Assembly: GCA_013141015.1 (NCBI GenBank)
Contig: JABFRT010000054.1
Location: 1-56,131, forward strand
Length of the DNA stretch: 56,131 nucleotides
Direction of reading: 5' to 3'
DNA from: Hyphomicrobium sp.
GTDB lineage: Bacteria; Pseudomonadota; Alphaproteobacteria; Rhizobiales; Hyphomicrobiaceae
Shown: positions 10,821 through 21,096 of the stretch, piece by piece
How positions within the stretch are numbered: position 1 is the stretch's first letter
Layout of the letters: every line of letters starts with the position of its first letter
Translations under genes and position numbers: made by a program
The notes under the pieces: generated by a model
Database searches by the model: none
The model's input: the letters and a program-made list of their open reading frames with translations, nothing else
Told to the model about the DNA's origin: nothing

Positions 10821-10840
10821 GGGGGCTGCGACATAAAAAG

Positions 10841-10932
10841 TGTCATCCCAGGCCTCGTGCCTGGGATCCATTCATCCGCTTGCGCCGGCGCTTGTGGGAT
10901 GATGGATCCTAGCCACAAGGGCTAGGATGACA
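10841..10932. repeat. 92-bp interspersed repeat, copy 1
   Basis: This 92-base block begins TGTCATCCCAGGCCTCGTGC and ends GGGCTAGGATGACA. It contains two inverted repeats: a CCCAGGC/GCCTGGG hairpin near the left end and an ATCCTAGCC/GGCTAGGAT hairpin near the right end. A nearly identical copy in the same orientation lies at 11606-11697. Such GTCATCCC-type palindromic repeats are common non-coding elements in alphaproteobacterial genomes. Confidence 0.85.
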
Positions 10933-10966
10933 AGGGTGGGGAGGCGCATGCTGGTCAAATACGGCT

Positions 10967-11470
10967 GTCATTGCCGGGGCGATGCGAAGCATCGCGAAGC
11001 CACCGGCCATCCACGGCAAGCACGCACTCCCGCGTTCCCGGCCGTAGATGCGCTAAGCGCATCGTAGAGCCGGGACCTTTCTCAGTTGCTATAGTTTTCA
11101 AATCCCAACAGGTAAAGATCCCGTGTCTGCGGTGCACCGCAAGGGCGCTGCACTCGCGCACGGGAAAGCGGCTGGTGGTGTGGCACCGCTAGAGTAACAC
11201 CACCACCGTCATGGCCGGGGCGATGCGCAACCCCTCCACCCGCGTTCCCGGCCGTAGATGCGCTAAGCGCATCGCAGAGCCGGGATCTTTCGCGTTCGCT
11301 AGGGCTTCCAAATCCCAACAGGTAAAGATCCCGTGTCTGCGGTGCACCGCAAGGGCGCTGCACTCGCGCACGGGAAAACGGGTGGTGGTGTGGCACCGCT
11401 AGAGTAACACCACCACCGTCATAGCCGGGGCGATGCACACCATCGCAAACCCGCCGGCCATCCACGGCAT
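10967..11470. repeat. 210-bp direct repeat array (about 2.3 units)
   Basis: Units begin GTCAT(T/G/A)GCCGGGGCGATGC at 10967, 11208 and 11418. Units 2 and 3 are spaced exactly 210 bases; unit 1 is 241 bases because of an extra segment of about 31 bases near 10985-11020. Shared landmarks are the CGTAGATGCGCTAAGCGCAT palindrome, AATCCCAACAGGTAAAGATC (11101 and 11311) and the closing AGAGTAACACCACCACCGTC. The third unit is a 5-prime fragment that runs into a GTCATCCCGGCGAAGGCCGG palindromic repeat near 11490. No coding function is evident. Confidence 0.85.
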
Positions 11471-11489
11471 TCCACATTCCGTCATCCCG

Positions 11490-11515
11490 GCGAAGGCCGG
11501 GATCCAGGCAGGCGT
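11490..11515. repeat. short palindromic repeat (GTCATCCCGGCGAAGGCCGG type)
   Basis: A compact hairpin with CCCGGC/GCCGGG arms and a GAAG loop. This motif is a widespread intergenic palindrome in alphaproteobacteria. It sits inside the repeat-rich gap between the pentapeptide gene and the DUF2971-like gene. Confidence 0.65.
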
Positions 11516-11605
11516 CGGCGCGAAGACATGTTGGGTCTGCGCTGCGCTTGACGCCAACCTACAAGATGGGCCGGACGGAAATTGCAGACGGCGCAGCACC
11601 AAACG

Positions 11606-11697
11606 TGTCATCCCAGGCCTCGTGCCTGGGATCCATTCATCCTCTGGCGCCGGCGTTTGTGGAACGATGGATCCTAGCCACAAGGGCTAGGATGACA
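11606..11697. repeat. 92-bp interspersed repeat, copy 2
   Basis: Same orientation and same two hairpins as the copy at 10841-10932, with a few substitutions in the middle. The pair brackets the 210-bp repeat array as direct repeats, so recombination between them would delete about 765 bases. Confidence 0.85.
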
Positions 11698-11809
11698 GCG
11701 GTGCGTGGCATTGCGCGGTTGCGAAACACCACGACCGTCAAACGGGGTCGAAGCACTGCATCGCGAAGAAGTACTAGCGTGCGGACCAACTTAGTAGTTG
11801 CTCCGGATC

Positions 11810-12784
11810 TTAGGTACGCAACGGAATGTTGGACAAAAAAACTCGTTCGTGAGCTTTATCAATTTTTAATTCTTCGAGCAGCCTTACGAAGTAGTCATAC
11901 ATCGCGAGGGGAAAGGCCGTAGGACCGATAATGATGCGACTGATAAGATGATTCAGATTGAGGCCGACTAAGTTCTCTTCTGGGAAGTCTCGCAAGGGTA
12001 ATTCGTAGATTATCTGCGGAATACCCCTCACATCGACCAAGCTAGATTTTAGTCGTTCATTAGGTTGGTGCTTGGGCTGATGGACGATGCGCCACTCTCG
12101 CTCTTCTTTGAATCCCAAATGTTTTGAGCAGATTGCCTGAGATTGCAGACATTCGAAAAGATGATCAACCAATGTCTCGGCACTCTGAGTCTTTAGAAAT
12201 TCCAATTCAGCTTCCATGCGGGAGACGAGCAACTGAAATGAGGATTGGTCATCCGGTGCACAATAAATCACAGGGTACGCGTAAGCACTCAACGCATCCG
12301 TGTAGGAGTACATTGGCGCCGGATTAATTACGATCGCGATAGCGGCGGCTCCACCGTAAGCCCGCCACATCGATAGACGGCCTATTTCATCCTCCGCATC
12401 GTCATGTTCCGACAAACAAAACAGGTAAGTATCCATCCGAAGATGGTCCACCCACCCATCATACAGCGCCACTATTTTATCCGGCAACTCGCTATTCAGC
12501 TCACCGAGAAGTACCCAAAACTTCTTAGCCGCTACTTGCTCCGACTTTCGTCCAAGCCCGGCAATCAGGCGACTATTGCCAAAATTTATTTCACTAACAT
12601 CATTCATTGTGGTTGCATTGCGCAACCAAACGTGTGGGCCACGTAAGATAGATGTTGCTGCACTGGCCGATGTATAGTGCACAAATCTGGTGCCAGCAGC
12701 CATGGCTGCTTCGCGACGTCCCAGCGTTTCGGGCTGGAAAATCCGCATGAGCTTAAGTGTGACTTCGTCAATTTCAATAGTCAT
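11810..12784 (-). CDS. DUF2971-like protein
   Basis: The 324-residue product has the signature opening of DUF2971 proteins: FVHYTSASAATSILRGPHVW followed by LRNATTMNDVSEINFG (about residues 32-68). A later conserved patch is KEEREWRIVHQP (about residue 228) and a CLSEHDDAEDE / MWRAYGGAAA region lies in the middle. The molecular function of DUF2971 is not established. The gene is visibly AT-richer than its neighbours and stands alone between a repeat nest and a damaged HAD gene, which suggests horizontal acquisition. There is no membrane span or signal peptide. Confidence 0.7.
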   Translation of the reverse strand: MTIEIDEVTLKLMRIFQPETLGRREAAMAAGTRFVHYTSASAATSILRGPHVWLRNATTMNDVSEINFGNSRLIAGLGRKSEQVAAKKFWVLLGELNSELPDKIVALYDGWVDHLRMDTYLFCLSEHDDAEDEIGRLSMWRAYGGAAAIAIVINPAPMYSYTDALSAYAYPVIYCAPDDQSSFQLLVSRMEAELEFLKTQSAETLVDHLFECLQSQAICSKHLGFKEEREWRIVHQPKHQPNERLKSSLVDVRGIPQIIYELPLRDFPEENLVGLNLNHLISRIIIGPTAFPLAMYDYFVRLLEELKIDKAHERVFLSNIPLRT

Positions 12785-14688: not shown

Positions 14689-15423
14689 CTAGTGCTTGCA
14701 ACCGCAGCCGCCGTTGCCGTCGCAGCCTTCTTTTTTTGCGGCGTGTTCGTGTTTGTGGTCGTGGGCGTGGCCGTGATCGCCACCGCCGCAGCAACCGCCG
14801 CCGTGCGCGTGATCGTGGTCATGCCCGTGATCATGGCTGTGATCATGCCCGTGACTGCCGCCACAGCATCCGCCTTCGTGGGCGTGCTCTTCCGGATCGG
14901 TCAGGGCTGCGTGCAGCTTGCTCTCAATCGCAATCGACATTTCGCGCGGGGAATTCTTGTCTTCCATCAACATACCCATGACCTCGGCGCCGATGCGCAG
15001 ATCGTCGACCGCACCCAGATAGTGGCGGCGCAACCGGCCCTGACGGTCGAACACCAGGATCGCGGGCGTGCCTTGCAACTCATAGTCCTTCATCGTTTGC
15101 GGCAGGCCGTCTCCGTTCGGCTTGTCGTAGGCCACGGGGATATCGATGCCGCTGTCTTTCAAAAACGCCTGCACTTTGTCGGGCGTCTGCTGATCGAACT
15201 TTTCAAACGCCATGTGCAGACCGATGACCGCGACTTCGTCAGTCGTGAAGGCTTTGCGGATCCGCTCGGCTTGCGGCAGGCCGAACTTGATCGAGCCCGG
15301 GCACGCAATCTGGCAGACTGCCACGATGATCACCTTGCCGCGATAATCTTTGAGCGAAATCTTCTTGTCGGAGTTCAACCAACGGGACGCGGTGAATTCG
15401 GGCGGGCTTTCGGGATTGAACAT
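14689..15423 (-). CDS. redoxin-family protein with His/Cys-rich metal-binding tail
   Basis: Residues 1-165 form a thioredoxin-like redoxin domain: [10 protein letters not shown] start, [20 protein letters not shown] at the active site (the string [15 protein letters not shown] holds Cys37 and Cys41; Ser44 replaces the second Cys of the CPGC relatives), and [17 protein letters not shown] with the cis-Pro. From about residue 178 a low-complexity tail of 67 residues contains 18 His and 7 Cys, including two CCGG blocks, alternating HDH runs and a final CGCKH. Such tails bind soft or transition metals (Ni, Zn, Cu). No signal peptide is visible, so it is probably cytosolic. AGGACAAG precedes the ATG. 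Function is inferred as a thiol-based redox protein linked to metal storage, delivery or sensing. Confidence 0.8.
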
Positions 15424-15494
15424 GATGGACTTGTCCTGTTGTCTTGTGAGGCCCGCTATATAGCATGCGGAAACACGAAAAGAAGGCGCGCGGC

Positions 15495-17257
15495 TCAGTC
15501 GCAGGGCTTCAGTGAGGTTGCGCCAGATTGCAGCACAAAGGCCTCGTTACATGCGAACGCGGGCGGCGGATTGCAAGGCGGCGCGCTGGTACTTGCAACA
15601 ACCGTTAACGTCAATGCGCAGCCGCGCATCGTATTGACAGCCCGCAGGCAGGCGACGGGGCGGATTTTGGTCTGCTGGTGATGTGTCAGCGCACTGTGGT
15701 TTTGCACGTTCCAGCCATCGGAGATGACGGCAAGGCCCGGCACGCTCCCGTCTGCCAGCTTCGCCAAACCGGTGGCGGTTGAAAGTTCCGCGTCGCGGTT
15801 CAAGATAAACCGGCTGGTCGGCTCGTTAAAACCGAGCACACCGAGACGCTGGGGTGGGCAGGCGGCGAGCGCACGTTCGATCTGCCGCGCGGGCCAGATT
15901 TTATCAATCGACGGCATCACGCCCGCGATCAACGTGACCGCGAATAGCCCGAGCGCCGCGACGCTCACCTTTGCCCAGCGCGTCAGGTTCCCGGCTCGGC
16001 CAACTGCCGCGCTCAAGAAAACAACGCGGCAACCGCGAGCATTGGCACGCAAAGCCACAGCGCCGGCCACTCGCGCACAGCCGCAAACGGTGCGGCAAAC
16101 AAGGTGGCTGCGAACAGCGCGGCGAGCGGCGGCCAAGGGATCGCGTGGAATTTTGGCAGCGCTTTCCCACTCCACGACGCGACCAGCACACCCACGCCAA
16201 GCGCCAGCGCCGGAAACATCGGCTGCACCATGTAAGTGCCGGGTTTCGACGATAGCAGTTCGAGATAGATGATGTAGCCAAGCACCCAGGCGAGCAGGAA
16301 GCGGGCGATTTTTGCGTCTTGCGATAGACCGGCGCGATTGCCCCACAGTGTGCTCAGTGCAGGCGCCAGCAACGCGGTGCCGGGCAGAAATCCGAGCACT
16401 GCCGCCAACACGAACGTGCCCGGCATGGCGCGCAGCTTCATATCCTGCGATCCGCCAAGCGCGGCCAGAAATTCCCTATAGTCGAGACCGGCGAACGGCA
16501 CGCCGTCTTGCAGTATCCGCACAATGATCCAAGGGCTCGCGATCAAAGGGCCAGCGGCAAACCGAACCGATGGCGAGGCGCTGCATCCACCACATATCGC
16601 GGTCCATAAACCGCAACGCAATCAGCGTGACGATGACGAGGATTGGCACAAGCAGCGCATTGATCAGCATGCCGAGGCCGAGCGCCGCCCAGAACAGCAG
16701 CGCCAGCGGGCGGGTGCTCTCCTCGCGGGGGGCGGTATAAATCCGCAGCAAGGCCAGCATCGCGACGGTGGCAGGCAGCAGCGACAACCCTTCTGCGATA
16801 GCGAGATGCGCGACCAGAACCGTCAACGGCGCAACCGCGAAGAGGCCCGCTGCGATCAACGCCGCCACACCCCCCACGAGTGGTGCGGCCAGCAGATAAA
16901 GCGCCAGCACCGCTAGTGTGACCGACAGCATGCCGGGAATGCGATAAACCCAGATATCGCGCGCGTGCTCAGGCCCTGCCAGCCACGCCACTTTGGCTTG
17001 CGCCCAATACGTGCCAATCGGCCGGAACTGATGGACCGTTTCGCCATAACGCGGATCAACAATCGCGCCCCGCGCCAGCATGTCCCGCGTGGTCTCGGCA
17101 AACACGACTTCCGTCCGGTCAACCGCCGGCAACCGGATAACGCCGGGCAGATAGACGGCAAGGCACAACAGAAACAGGGCGAGCATGGATAAGCGCCGTT
17201 GCGCGCCGATGTTGTGGCGTACCTTTTCAATCGTGCCAGCCCCGTCCACGCCGCCAT
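15495..17257 (-). pseudogene. ArnT-like GT39 glycosyltransferase, frameshifted
   Basis: GT39/ArnT enzymes are polytopic inner-membrane proteins that move sugars from lipid carriers to lipid A or glycans. The N-terminal part (frame ending near 16560) carries the characteristic LPAVDRTEVVFAETTRDML acidic motif and then many membrane spans. The continuation LIASPWIIVRILQDGVPFAG is in another frame, and a third frame (after about 16020) holds the C-terminal soluble part. At least two indels are needed, one in a T run near 16022. The start is unsettled: the ATG at 17257 begins MAAWTGLARLKRY, but the downstream transmembrane sequence is in a different frame. Together with EptA this would have been a lipid A modification gene. 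It looks inactive. Confidence 0.75.
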
Positions 17258-17337
17258 TTCCCGCGTTGTCTTGACACCCACCCGTAGTTGGGGGCATTGC
17301 GCATCCTCAGACGAAAAAGACAAGAGGGCGAGCGCCG

Positions 17338-17916
17338 ATGACCGACACTAAAAACAGCACAGCCGCCAAGCGCGCCCGCCTGATCGAGATCGTTAAGGCG
17401 CGTTCGTTCCAGGAAGGGCCTGAAATGCGGCTGGCATCCGGCAAGCTGTCGACCTTCTACTTCAACATGAAACCGACCATGCTTGACAGCGAGGGCGCCC
17501 ACCTCATCGCCGATCTGATCCTCGATCAGCTCGATGGCGTGGACGCGGACCTCGTCGGCGGGCTTGAAATGGGTGCCGTGCCAATTGCCGCCAGCGTGAC
17601 AGCCGTGGCCCACACCCGCGGCCGCAAGCTGCCGGCCTTCTTCGCGCGCAAACAGGCCAAGGAACACGGCACCAAAAGCCTGATCGAAGGCTTGGGCCCG
17701 GGCGAGACGATGGCTGGAAAACGCGTCGTTATCGTCGAGGACGTAACGACCACCGGCGGCTCGGCGATCAAAGCGGCCGAAGCCATCCGCGCGTCGGGCG
17801 CCGAGATTGTGCGCGTGATTACAATCGTTGATCGCCAGGACGGCGCGGACGACGCCTTCAAGGCCGCCAACATGGATTTCCGGCCCTTGCTGACTTTGGC
17901 CAACTTCAAGAGCTAA
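17338..17916 (+). CDS. pyrE: orotate phosphoribosyltransferase
   Basis: PyrE joins orotate and PRPP to give OMP in de novo pyrimidine synthesis. The 192-residue protein has the PRPP-binding motif VVIVEDVTTTGGSAIKA (about residues 130-146), a catalytic-loop region (FFARKQAKEHGTKSLIEG) and the N-terminal LASGKLSTFYFNMKP motif of the longer, alphaproteobacterial-type enzyme. Length and motifs are normal. It is divergent from the ArnT-like pseudogene and is one of the few intact genes in the 13-21 kb block. Confidence 0.95.
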   Translation: MTDTKNSTAAKRARLIEIVKARSFQEGPEMRLASGKLSTFYFNMKPTMLDSEGAHLIADLILDQLDGVDADLVGGLEMGAVPIAASVTAVAHTRGRKLPAFFARKQAKEHGTKSLIEGLGPGETMAGKRVVIVEDVTTTGGSAIKAAEAIRASGAEIVRVITIVDRQDGADDAFKAANMDFRPLLTLANFKS

Positions 17917-19511: not shown

Positions 19512-21096
19512 CTACTCGGCCGCTAGCCGGCTGGCGACAGGGAGCCAGCGCAGCACTTCGGCGTCAGCTTTCGAACTTGGCGCGAAGTTCTTGGCAAACA
19601 TGTCAGCGAGCTTGGATGCGGCCGCATCATAAGCGCAGGGATCAGCCCAGGTATCGCGCGGCGTCATCAGCTTGGCATCGACGCCCGCCAATTGCACCGG
19701 CACCTTGAAGCCGAACACCGGATCAACGCGCATCGTGGTGTTGGCGAGTTCGCCAGACAGCGCCGCATTCAACAGCGCGCGCGTCACCTTAATCGGCATG
19801 CGCGTGCCTTCGCCGTACTTGCCGCCGGTCCAGCCGGTGTTGACCAGCCAGCAATCGATTTGATGCTGGGCGATCAGATCGCGCAGCAGGTTGCCATAGA
19901 CGCTGGGGTGACGCGGCATGAGACGGTGCGCCAAAGCAGGTCGAAGGTCGGCTGTGGTTCATTGCCCATGCCCTTTTCGGTGCCGGCAACCTTAGCCGTA
20001 AAGCCCGACAGGAAGTGATACATCGCCTGGCTCGGCGTCAACTTGGCGATCGGCGGCAATACACCAAACGCATCGGCCGTCAGCATTACGATGTTCTTTG
20101 GGTGAGTCGCCGTGCCCGTTGGGCTGGCGTTGGGAATCGCTTCCAGCGGATACGCCGAACGCGAATTCTCAGCCAGACGCGCGTCATCGAAATCCGGCAC
20201 GCGGGTCACGGGGTTGATCACAACGTTTTCAAGAACAGTCGCGAAGCGGTTTGAGGCGGCGAAAATTTCAGGTTCCGCCGTCTTCGACAGGCGAATGGTT
20301 TTCGCGTAGCACCCACCTTCGAAATTAAAGACGCCCTTTTCGCTCCAGCCGTGTTCATCGTCGCCGAGCAATTCGCGCGCCGGGTCCGCCGACAGCGTGG
20401 TTTTGCCGGTGCCCGACAAGCCGAAAAACACAGCCGACGTGCCGTCGCTGCCGACGTTTGCCGAGCAGTGCATCGGCATCACGCCTTGGACGGCAGCACG
20501 TAGTTGAGATACGAGAACACGCTTTTCTTAATTTCGCCGGCGTAGCTGGTGCCGCCGATCAGCACGATGCGCTTGGTGAAGTTGCAGGCAATCACCGTCT
20601 CGCTGCGTGTGCCGTGATAGAGGGGAGCGGCGCGGAAGCTCGGCAGATTGACGACCGTAAATTCCGGCTCAAAGCCCTGCAATTCGTCAGCGCCCGGACG
20701 GCGCAACAGGTGGCGGATGAATAATGCGTGCCACGCGGTTTCGGTGACGATCCGCGTATTCAAGCGGTGGGTGGTGTCGGCGCCCGCATAGAGATCTTGC
20801 ACGAACAGTTCTTTGTGGCGGGCAAACGCGATAAAATCCGCCAGCAAGCGGTCGAACTGCTCTTCCGACATCTCCTTCGAGTTGTCCCACCAGATCGCTT
20901 TATCGGTGCCTTCATCGCGGACGACGTATTTGTCCTGGGCTGAGCGGCCGGTGTGCTGGCCGGTTTCCACAACGAATGAGCCAGTTGAAGCCAGCTGCCC
21001 CTCGCCGCGGCGAATGGCAATTTCCATCAGCTCGGCTTCGAGTGTGTTGCGGCGGATCTTGGGTGAAGATTCGAGGGGGAATAGCTGCAGCGTCAT
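19512..21096 (-). pseudogene. pckA: ATP-dependent phosphoenolpyruvate carboxykinase, frameshifted
   Basis: PckA converts oxaloacetate to PEP, the first step of gluconeogenesis. The N-terminal part (about 205 residues) includes GQHTGRSAQDKYVVRDE and the [20 protein letters not shown] motif, then closes at SKA because a G appears lost from the expected AAGGGCGTG near 20483. The next frame carries the P-loop [15 protein letters not shown] and the metal-site [11 protein letters not shown] short piece STCFGAP is in a third frame (about 19930-19950), and [11 protein letters not shown] resumes in another to the true C-terminus. At least three frame changes are needed. The position next to divergent chvI is the usual rhizobial order. 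If the changes are real, this strain lacks this route to PEP. Confidence 0.88.

Follow-up and report, generated by a model that had tools for sequence, protein, structure and literature searches.

A redoxin gene with a His/Cys-rich tail

The window, by which we mean the whole stretch of 56,131 nucleotides of Hyphomicrobium sp. DNA that we analyzed, belongs to an assembly of 69 contigs (3.94 Mb, 97.6% complete) and carries on its minus strand an open reading frame of 244 amino acids (14689..15423; ATG at 15423, stop codon at 14691-14689). The encoded protein consists of a thioredoxin-fold (redoxin) domain (residues 1-156; 14956..15423), a linker (residues 157-177; 14893..14955) that contains a conserved helix at residues 160-174, and a His/Cys-rich tail that is predicted to be disordered (residues 178-244; 14692..14892). 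The active-site motif, C41-P-G-S44, lies at 15292..15303, and cysteines occupy positions 37, 41, 186, 187, 211, 212, 234, 240 and 242. By simple hydropathy, the redoxin has no N-terminal hydrophobic segment and is cytosolic-looking.

Several genes of this assembly are broken. The GT39-like gene (15498-17444) and pckA (19518-21096) are each split over three frames in the window, the pieces spanning nearly the whole protein, and each reads as one frame in relatives; a third broken gene, on contig C21, is one that we take to be trigger factor. These breaks are likely to stem from assembly indel errors. The labels GT39-like, pckA and spondin-like are our own assumptions, the last of them without Pfam support. 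Although adjacent genes carry frame breaks, we consider the frame of the tail to be right, because the homologue at locus L048, from another genus than the window, has an ending of the same type (...KKEGCDGKGGCGCGH). The codons of the tail are mixed (CAC 15 and CAT 3 for His, GAT 4 and GAC 3 for Asp, TGC 6 and TGT 1 for Cys, and four different codons for Gly), which argues that the tail is no fresh triplet expansion.

The thioredoxin fold is retained and the active site is altered

Pfam assigns residues 8-139 to AhpC-TSA (PF00578; 33.5 bits against a gathering cut-off of 26) and Redoxin (PF08534; 33 bits against 26.6), both matches passing slightly over the cut-off, and it calls no FKBP domain, the prolyl-isomerase domain of SlyD. 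Matches to the NCBIfam models of ResA, StoA and TlpA are weak and far under the curated cut-offs (ResA, 26.2 against 170 bits; TlpA, 18.2 against 230 bits). By sequence, the nearest proteins of solved structure are 3EYT (SPOA0173; E = 6.4e-39) and 3LOR (1.2e-35), both about 41% identical to the window protein across some 150 residues. In an AlphaFold2 model built from a 40-row alignment, pLDDT is mostly above 90 to about residue 170 (92 at residues 151-170) and 82 at residues 171-180, and no structure is predicted after residue 180. 3EYT is also the top Foldseek match of this model (target-normalized TM score 0.93-0.95, 41-42% identity, rmsd 1.0-1.4).

In a nine-row alignment (A1), the core is strongly conserved, and C41 and the G118-T119-P120 loop are invariant, as they are in 40 aligned rows; the proline of this loop is presumably the cis-Pro of the thioredoxin fold. 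Conservation extends into the linker and its helix, where R160, E161, S163, E167, L174 and P177 are invariant in the same nine rows. The Thr-Pro loop (residues 119-120) and the fold are shared with TlpA and ResA, but the window protein differs from these thiol-disulfide oxidoreductases in having CPGS in place of CXXC and in lacking the hydrophobic N-terminus that would export it or anchor it in the membrane. The uncharacterized thioredoxin-like proteins 3EYT and 3LOR, which have the same fold and belong to the same family, retain the CPGC pair and are chains of 158 and 160 residues without a His/Cys tail. Searched by name, SPOA0173, 3EYT and 3LOR gave no paper that was related by its title in the open-access literature.

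A redoxin domain had already been proposed in the first-pass annotation of this DNA, and the Pfam and fold matches bear this out. The same annotation remarked that a serine stands where a resolving cysteine might be expected, and relatives indeed carry their second cysteine at this position: CxxC is found in all 28 tail-less rows, mostly as CPGC, and in 21 of 66 tailed rows. Since the resolving cysteine of the CXXC motif is lost, ordinary disulfide catalysis is argued against. PxxxTxxC, the catalytic motif of peroxiredoxins, is absent as well, residues 34-41 reading V-A-V-C-Q-I-A-C with V34 and Q38 at the positions of P and T. The active-site stretch of the window protein, V-C37-Q-I-A-C41-P-G-S44, had suggested Cys37 as the functional partner of Cys41. 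We ruled out such a redox pair: among the 66 tailed proteins, residue 37 is Phe in 48, Trp in 12, Ala in three and Cys in only three.

The tail resembles that of SlyD

Of the 67 residues of the tail, 18 are His and 7 are Cys, in full agreement with the composition first noted. No other 67-amino acid stretch of the window, taken over all six-frame open stretches, is as rich in these two amino acids (25 His plus Cys, against 15 in the runner-up). A codon pattern for HxHxHxHxH, in which the x positions were limited to codons of the purine-purine type, has four overlapping matches in the whole assembly, all within the redoxin gene, and none in a reversed control. Searched alone, the tail, a low-complexity query, matches no PDB sequence, and within its own genome it matches itself only. 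Across the family, tails vary highly in length and letters and turn over rapidly, despite which each holds 7-34 His.

The SlyD of Escherichia coli K-12, as encoded in its genome, ends in HVHGAHDHHHDHDHDGCCGGHGHDHGHEHGGEGCCGGKGNGGCGCH. Aligned with this tail, that of the window protein scores 164. Composition shuffles scored 89.6 ± 11.3, and none of 2000 attained 164; shuffles that preserve dipeptides scored 112.7 ± 14.4 (3 of 2000 attaining 164), and shuffles of six-residue blocks scored 120.1 ± 15.9 (17 of 2000). Six other tails of the family were compared with SlyD in the same way. For four of them (L032, L048, L136 and L156) none of 500 composition shuffles attained the score, for L157 11 of 500 did, and for L033, a Hyphomicrobium protein whose tail is of the type usual in that genus, 44 of 500 did (score 96, shuffled mean 80.2). 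The window and SlyD tails thus appear to share a grammar (CCGG, HGHDHGHEH and an end of the form GGCGC-H) and a position in the protein, which most likely arose by convergence rather than descent; the folded domain of SlyD, an FKBP, is unrelated to the redoxin.

SlyD offers a model of how such a tail might bind metal. The E. coli SlyD tail is described as binding up to seven Ni per protein as well as other divalent cations and is regarded as a metal reservoir (PMC7055735, PMC7840056). In Helicobacter pylori, SlyD is reported to affect nickel metabolism without needing its C-terminal region (PMC7840056), and the main function of a protein may therefore lie elsewhere than in such a tail. The same source describes H. 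pylori HspA, whose C-terminal His/Cys extension sequesters nickel (PMC7840056). HspA resembles the window protein, by description rather than by sequence, in joining a housekeeping domain to a lineage-specific C-terminal His/Cys extension; it differs in that the domain is GroES and the extension is confined to Helicobacter. By analogy with SlyD, whose tail is known for Ni and other divalent ions, the earlier view that the tail is of a metal-binding kind would hold for a feature that we find conserved. The accompanying statement that no precise analogue was known gives way, the SlyD tail being a close one. Among the matches listed from the open-access literature, judged by titles and the starts of abstracts, no paper deals with a redoxin so tailed.

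SlyD itself is scarce in the family. It was matched in seven of 103 family genomes, the matches ending at residue 150-151 of 196, before the tail, and neither the window genome nor any other of the 22 genomes of its genus gave a match. To our knowledge, many Alphaproteobacteria lack SlyD, and its absence here is perhaps unremarkable for that reason. FKBP_C has three matches in the window's own genome, of which a lipoprotein-like one has no tail and another lies in the broken frame taken as trigger factor.

The tail was gained once, before the resolving cysteine was lost

Homologues (E ≤ 1e-10) occur in 81 of 103 genomes of the Hyphomicrobiaceae. The tailed type is present in 73 of these 81 genomes; the tail is seen in 70, and in three a contig end precedes it (L062, L165 and L169, whose tails were left unscored; G001 stands outside the 72 tailed loci). 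The remaining eight genomes hold a distant tail-less homologue only, and G026 has both types. Among 53 loci from named relatives, the best rows are mostly Hyphomicrobium metagenome-assembled genomes, together with H. facile DSM 1565. At E ≤ 1e-15, 39 of 297 genomes of an order sample gave a match, 11 of them within the family, as did 25 of 385 genomes of a class sample, one of which is the window's own. Matches from outside the family stop at or before query residue 171 (order) or 187 (class), and the longest of them contain stops. In low-complexity sequence a truncated alignment proves little, and we therefore read outside proteins directly: the tail is absent in 12 outside loci (L176-L187) and in 16 loci of the named collection (L098-L109, L111-L114), with two or three of the proteins short or cut. 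Among 117 plasmid records with relatives, none has a place that covers 80% of the query; four of their contexts were viewed, one without annotation at that place.

We called a row tailed if it had at least six His after residue 150. In a tree of 98 rows, made from the domain only and by a quick method, 67 tailed rows and the three rows cut by contig ends form a 70-row clade with an SH-aLRT support of 99, and all 28 tail-less rows fall outside it. (L175, which is partial, and L034, which is tailed, has CPGS and is close to L033, were left out.) It follows that the tail goes back to a single gain in the common ancestor of a Hyphomicrobiaceae clade and has been kept since. This disposes of the two doubts that the first-pass annotation had attached to its own reading: the tail is not absent in close relatives, and it is no lineage-wide low-complexity artefact, the HxH pattern being confined to this gene and no habit of the genome.

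Within the tailed clade, CxxC is kept in a group of 19 rows (support 81; L056 is the exception), and CxxS is the rule in a clade of 51 rows (support 97; L132, L138 and L143 are the exceptions); the active-site state changes four times on the tree in total. The ancestral active site was therefore CxxC, with Ser in a large subclade that includes the window. The tail thus came first, and the resolving cysteine was lost afterwards.

The ends of the proteins also differ. CX4C (such as CDENGC) closes 21 of 36 tail-less relatives and is absent in the other 15. Among 68 tailed proteins, counted over related and thus non-independent rows, nine, including the window's, end in CX4-5CxC, 13 have a GCGC-type end and 23 another, and HVHGPxC(K/G)H lies within the last 45 residues of 23. 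The His-rich part may possibly have been inserted ahead of an older C-terminal thiol pair. HVHGPxC(K/G/N)H recurs at or near the ends of the L033-L046 tails, and L154 has three copies of it; this motif is a possible metal-binding unit.

Tailed and tail-less genes have different neighbors

Tracing tailed redoxins and their neighbors, as had been proposed at the outset, we found that most tailed loci adjoin pyrE. A divergent pyrE lies next to the tailed gene in 54 of 72 loci; 42 have a HAD-like gene downstream and 30 a GT39-like gene upstream, counts in which some loci are too short to reveal their neighbors. NCBIfam backs the identity of PyrE (141.4 against 106.8 bits), whereas the HAD label stays below its cut-offs. 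A formate/nitrite transporter gene follows in 11 of 72 loci, and in the seven loci where it was clustered, its open frame starts no more than about 13 bases from the stop of the redoxin; at L044:8006-9615 the two frames overlap by one base. No match to this transporter was found beside the window gene. The neighbors of the tailed redoxin are pyrE, the GT39-like and HAD-like genes and, in some relatives, the transporter, and no metal gene lies beside it. The tailed gene occupies a stable chromosomal place and belongs to no metal operon.

A possible promoter -10 element, TGCTAT, lies 42 nt before the ATG (15460..15465, minus strand). Of 71 tailed loci, which are not independent of one another, 24 have TGNTAT in the 80 nt that precede the start codon; in mononucleotide shuffles the rate is 2.5%. 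This element would suggest that the gene is constitutive. Scanning the same 71 upstream regions with the core of the Zur consensus gave a best score of 10 of 15 positions, reached in three regions (L049 and the sisters L033 and L034), and 53 of 3550 shuffles also scored at least 10, so that no clear box is seen. Elsewhere in the window, the stretch 10836-11703 is rich in repeats (two copies of 201 nt, 210 nt apart and 93% identical; two of 103 nt, 765 nt apart and 92% identical; two of 52 nt, 87% identical), among them a translated repeat that we take to be of the VIPAKAGIQ type, and a DUF2971 protein is encoded on the minus strand at 11810-12784 (Pfam, 34.9 bits against a cut-off of 22).

Tail-less relatives keep other company: a MarR regulator in nine of 23 loci, an upstream protein without a Pfam match in ten, the heme protein HTHP in four and pyrE in none. 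Neither the MarR nor the HTHP references were found beside any of the 72 tailed loci; HTHP matches occur in five of the 103 genomes of the family, and the search gave none in that of the window. In four tail-less loci (L058, L059, L061 and L117) MarR, the Pfam-less protein, HTHP and the redoxin form a compact module, which is also seen on a Ruegeria megaplasmid; the first three of these have a CPGC active site and a CX4C end. The megaplasmid relative, presumably SPOA0173, sits with MarR, HTHP and MOSC proteins. The module is perhaps an oxidative-stress cassette. Peroxide electrocatalysis is reported for HTHP (PMC4813847).

A proposed metal buffer built on a redoxin

We favor, at slightly better than even odds (about 0.52), the reading that the protein is a cytosolic metal-buffering protein, for storage or as a chaperone, built on a redoxin. 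Its tail would bind several divalent ions (Zn, Cu or Ni) with moderate affinity, as the SlyD and HspA tails do, and in this way would buffer the cytosolic divalent pool. The redoxin domain, whose two-cysteine catalysis was probably lost in the window's clade, would serve as a folded carrier and might use its conserved surface and helix to dock partners. The single origin and retention of the tail, its SlyD-like score, the lack of a family-wide SlyD and the loss of the resolving cysteine speak for a buffer; the absence of an adjoining metal gene and of a clear Zur box, and the tails of the family that are not SlyD-like, speak against it. The open-access literature that we searched yielded no measurement of metal binding on such a protein.

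Conservation of the redoxin core exceeds what a mere carrier needs, and this, together with the invariance of Cys41 in both alignments, is mainly what keeps alive a less likely alternative, a redox-gated metal chaperone or sensor, which refines the idea of the first-pass annotation. Here Cys41 would attack, and tail cysteines (CCGG, GCGC) would replace the lost resolving cysteine; oxidation would form a disulfide between Cys41 and the tail and release metal, and reduction would allow reloading. Tails of CxxS rows are richer in Cys than those of CxxC rows (median 5 in 45 rows against 2 in 21; L144, with a run of N in its tail, left out), with about equal His (20 and 19), and the older thiol pair suggested by the CX4C and CX4-5CxC ends may have served the active site. 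Against this stand the 15 tail-less relatives without CX4C, CxxC rows with at least three tail Cys (L051, L132, L138 and L143) and CxxS rows with fewer (L031 and L056). Over the four independent pairs that the four changes on the tree provide, the Cys count goes the same way in 0.9 and is equal in 3.1 on average, and with only four independent contrasts a link between the loss of the resolving cysteine and the cysteines of the tail cannot reach significance. The fuller version, a store in which a SlyD-like tail was gained, the resolving cysteine was then ceded to it, and metal is ejected upon oxidation and reloaded upon reduction, we regard as rather doubtful.

The conserved core would also suit a one-cysteine redoxin that is still mainly an antioxidant or disulfide-exchange enzyme, with the tail as an accessory, such as a tether to partners or a guard against metal-driven radicals. 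The company of MarR and HTHP points that way for the tail-less relatives, but it is missing from the tailed loci, and the absence of PxxxTxxC and the loss of the resolving cysteine make this role unlikely for the window protein. A nickel chaperone for urease or NiFe hydrogenase, standing in for SlyD, might be expected from a SlyD-type tail in a family mostly without SlyD. Yet a search of the window genome for these two client enzymes, urease alpha and NiFe hydrogenase, found neither, which argues against a chaperone dedicated to them here; both are lacking in 30 of the 70 genomes in which the tail is seen, this one included, and among the 30 family genomes without a tailed gene 11 have urease and eight have hydrogenase, so that we think this role very improbable. 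Just as improbable is a neutral, low-complexity drift of the C-terminus. The great variation of the tails in length and letters would fit it, but a tail is present in every scored row of the 70-row clade (all but the three contig-cut rows), the codons are mixed, the HxH pattern is unique in the genome and a conserved helix precedes the tail; among the rows read, no close relative has an intact core with a stop before the tail.

His/Cys tails on housekeeping proteins are already known from SlyD and HspA. Here such a tail sits on a redoxin, with a single origin, kept through much of a family and followed by a change in the catalytic pair. The order of the steps, the tail and then the loss of the resolving cysteine, offers a direct way to test how thiol chemistry and metal buffering come together. 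For Hyphomicrobium, in which SlyD was not found, the tailed redoxin may represent a candidate cytosolic metal buffer.
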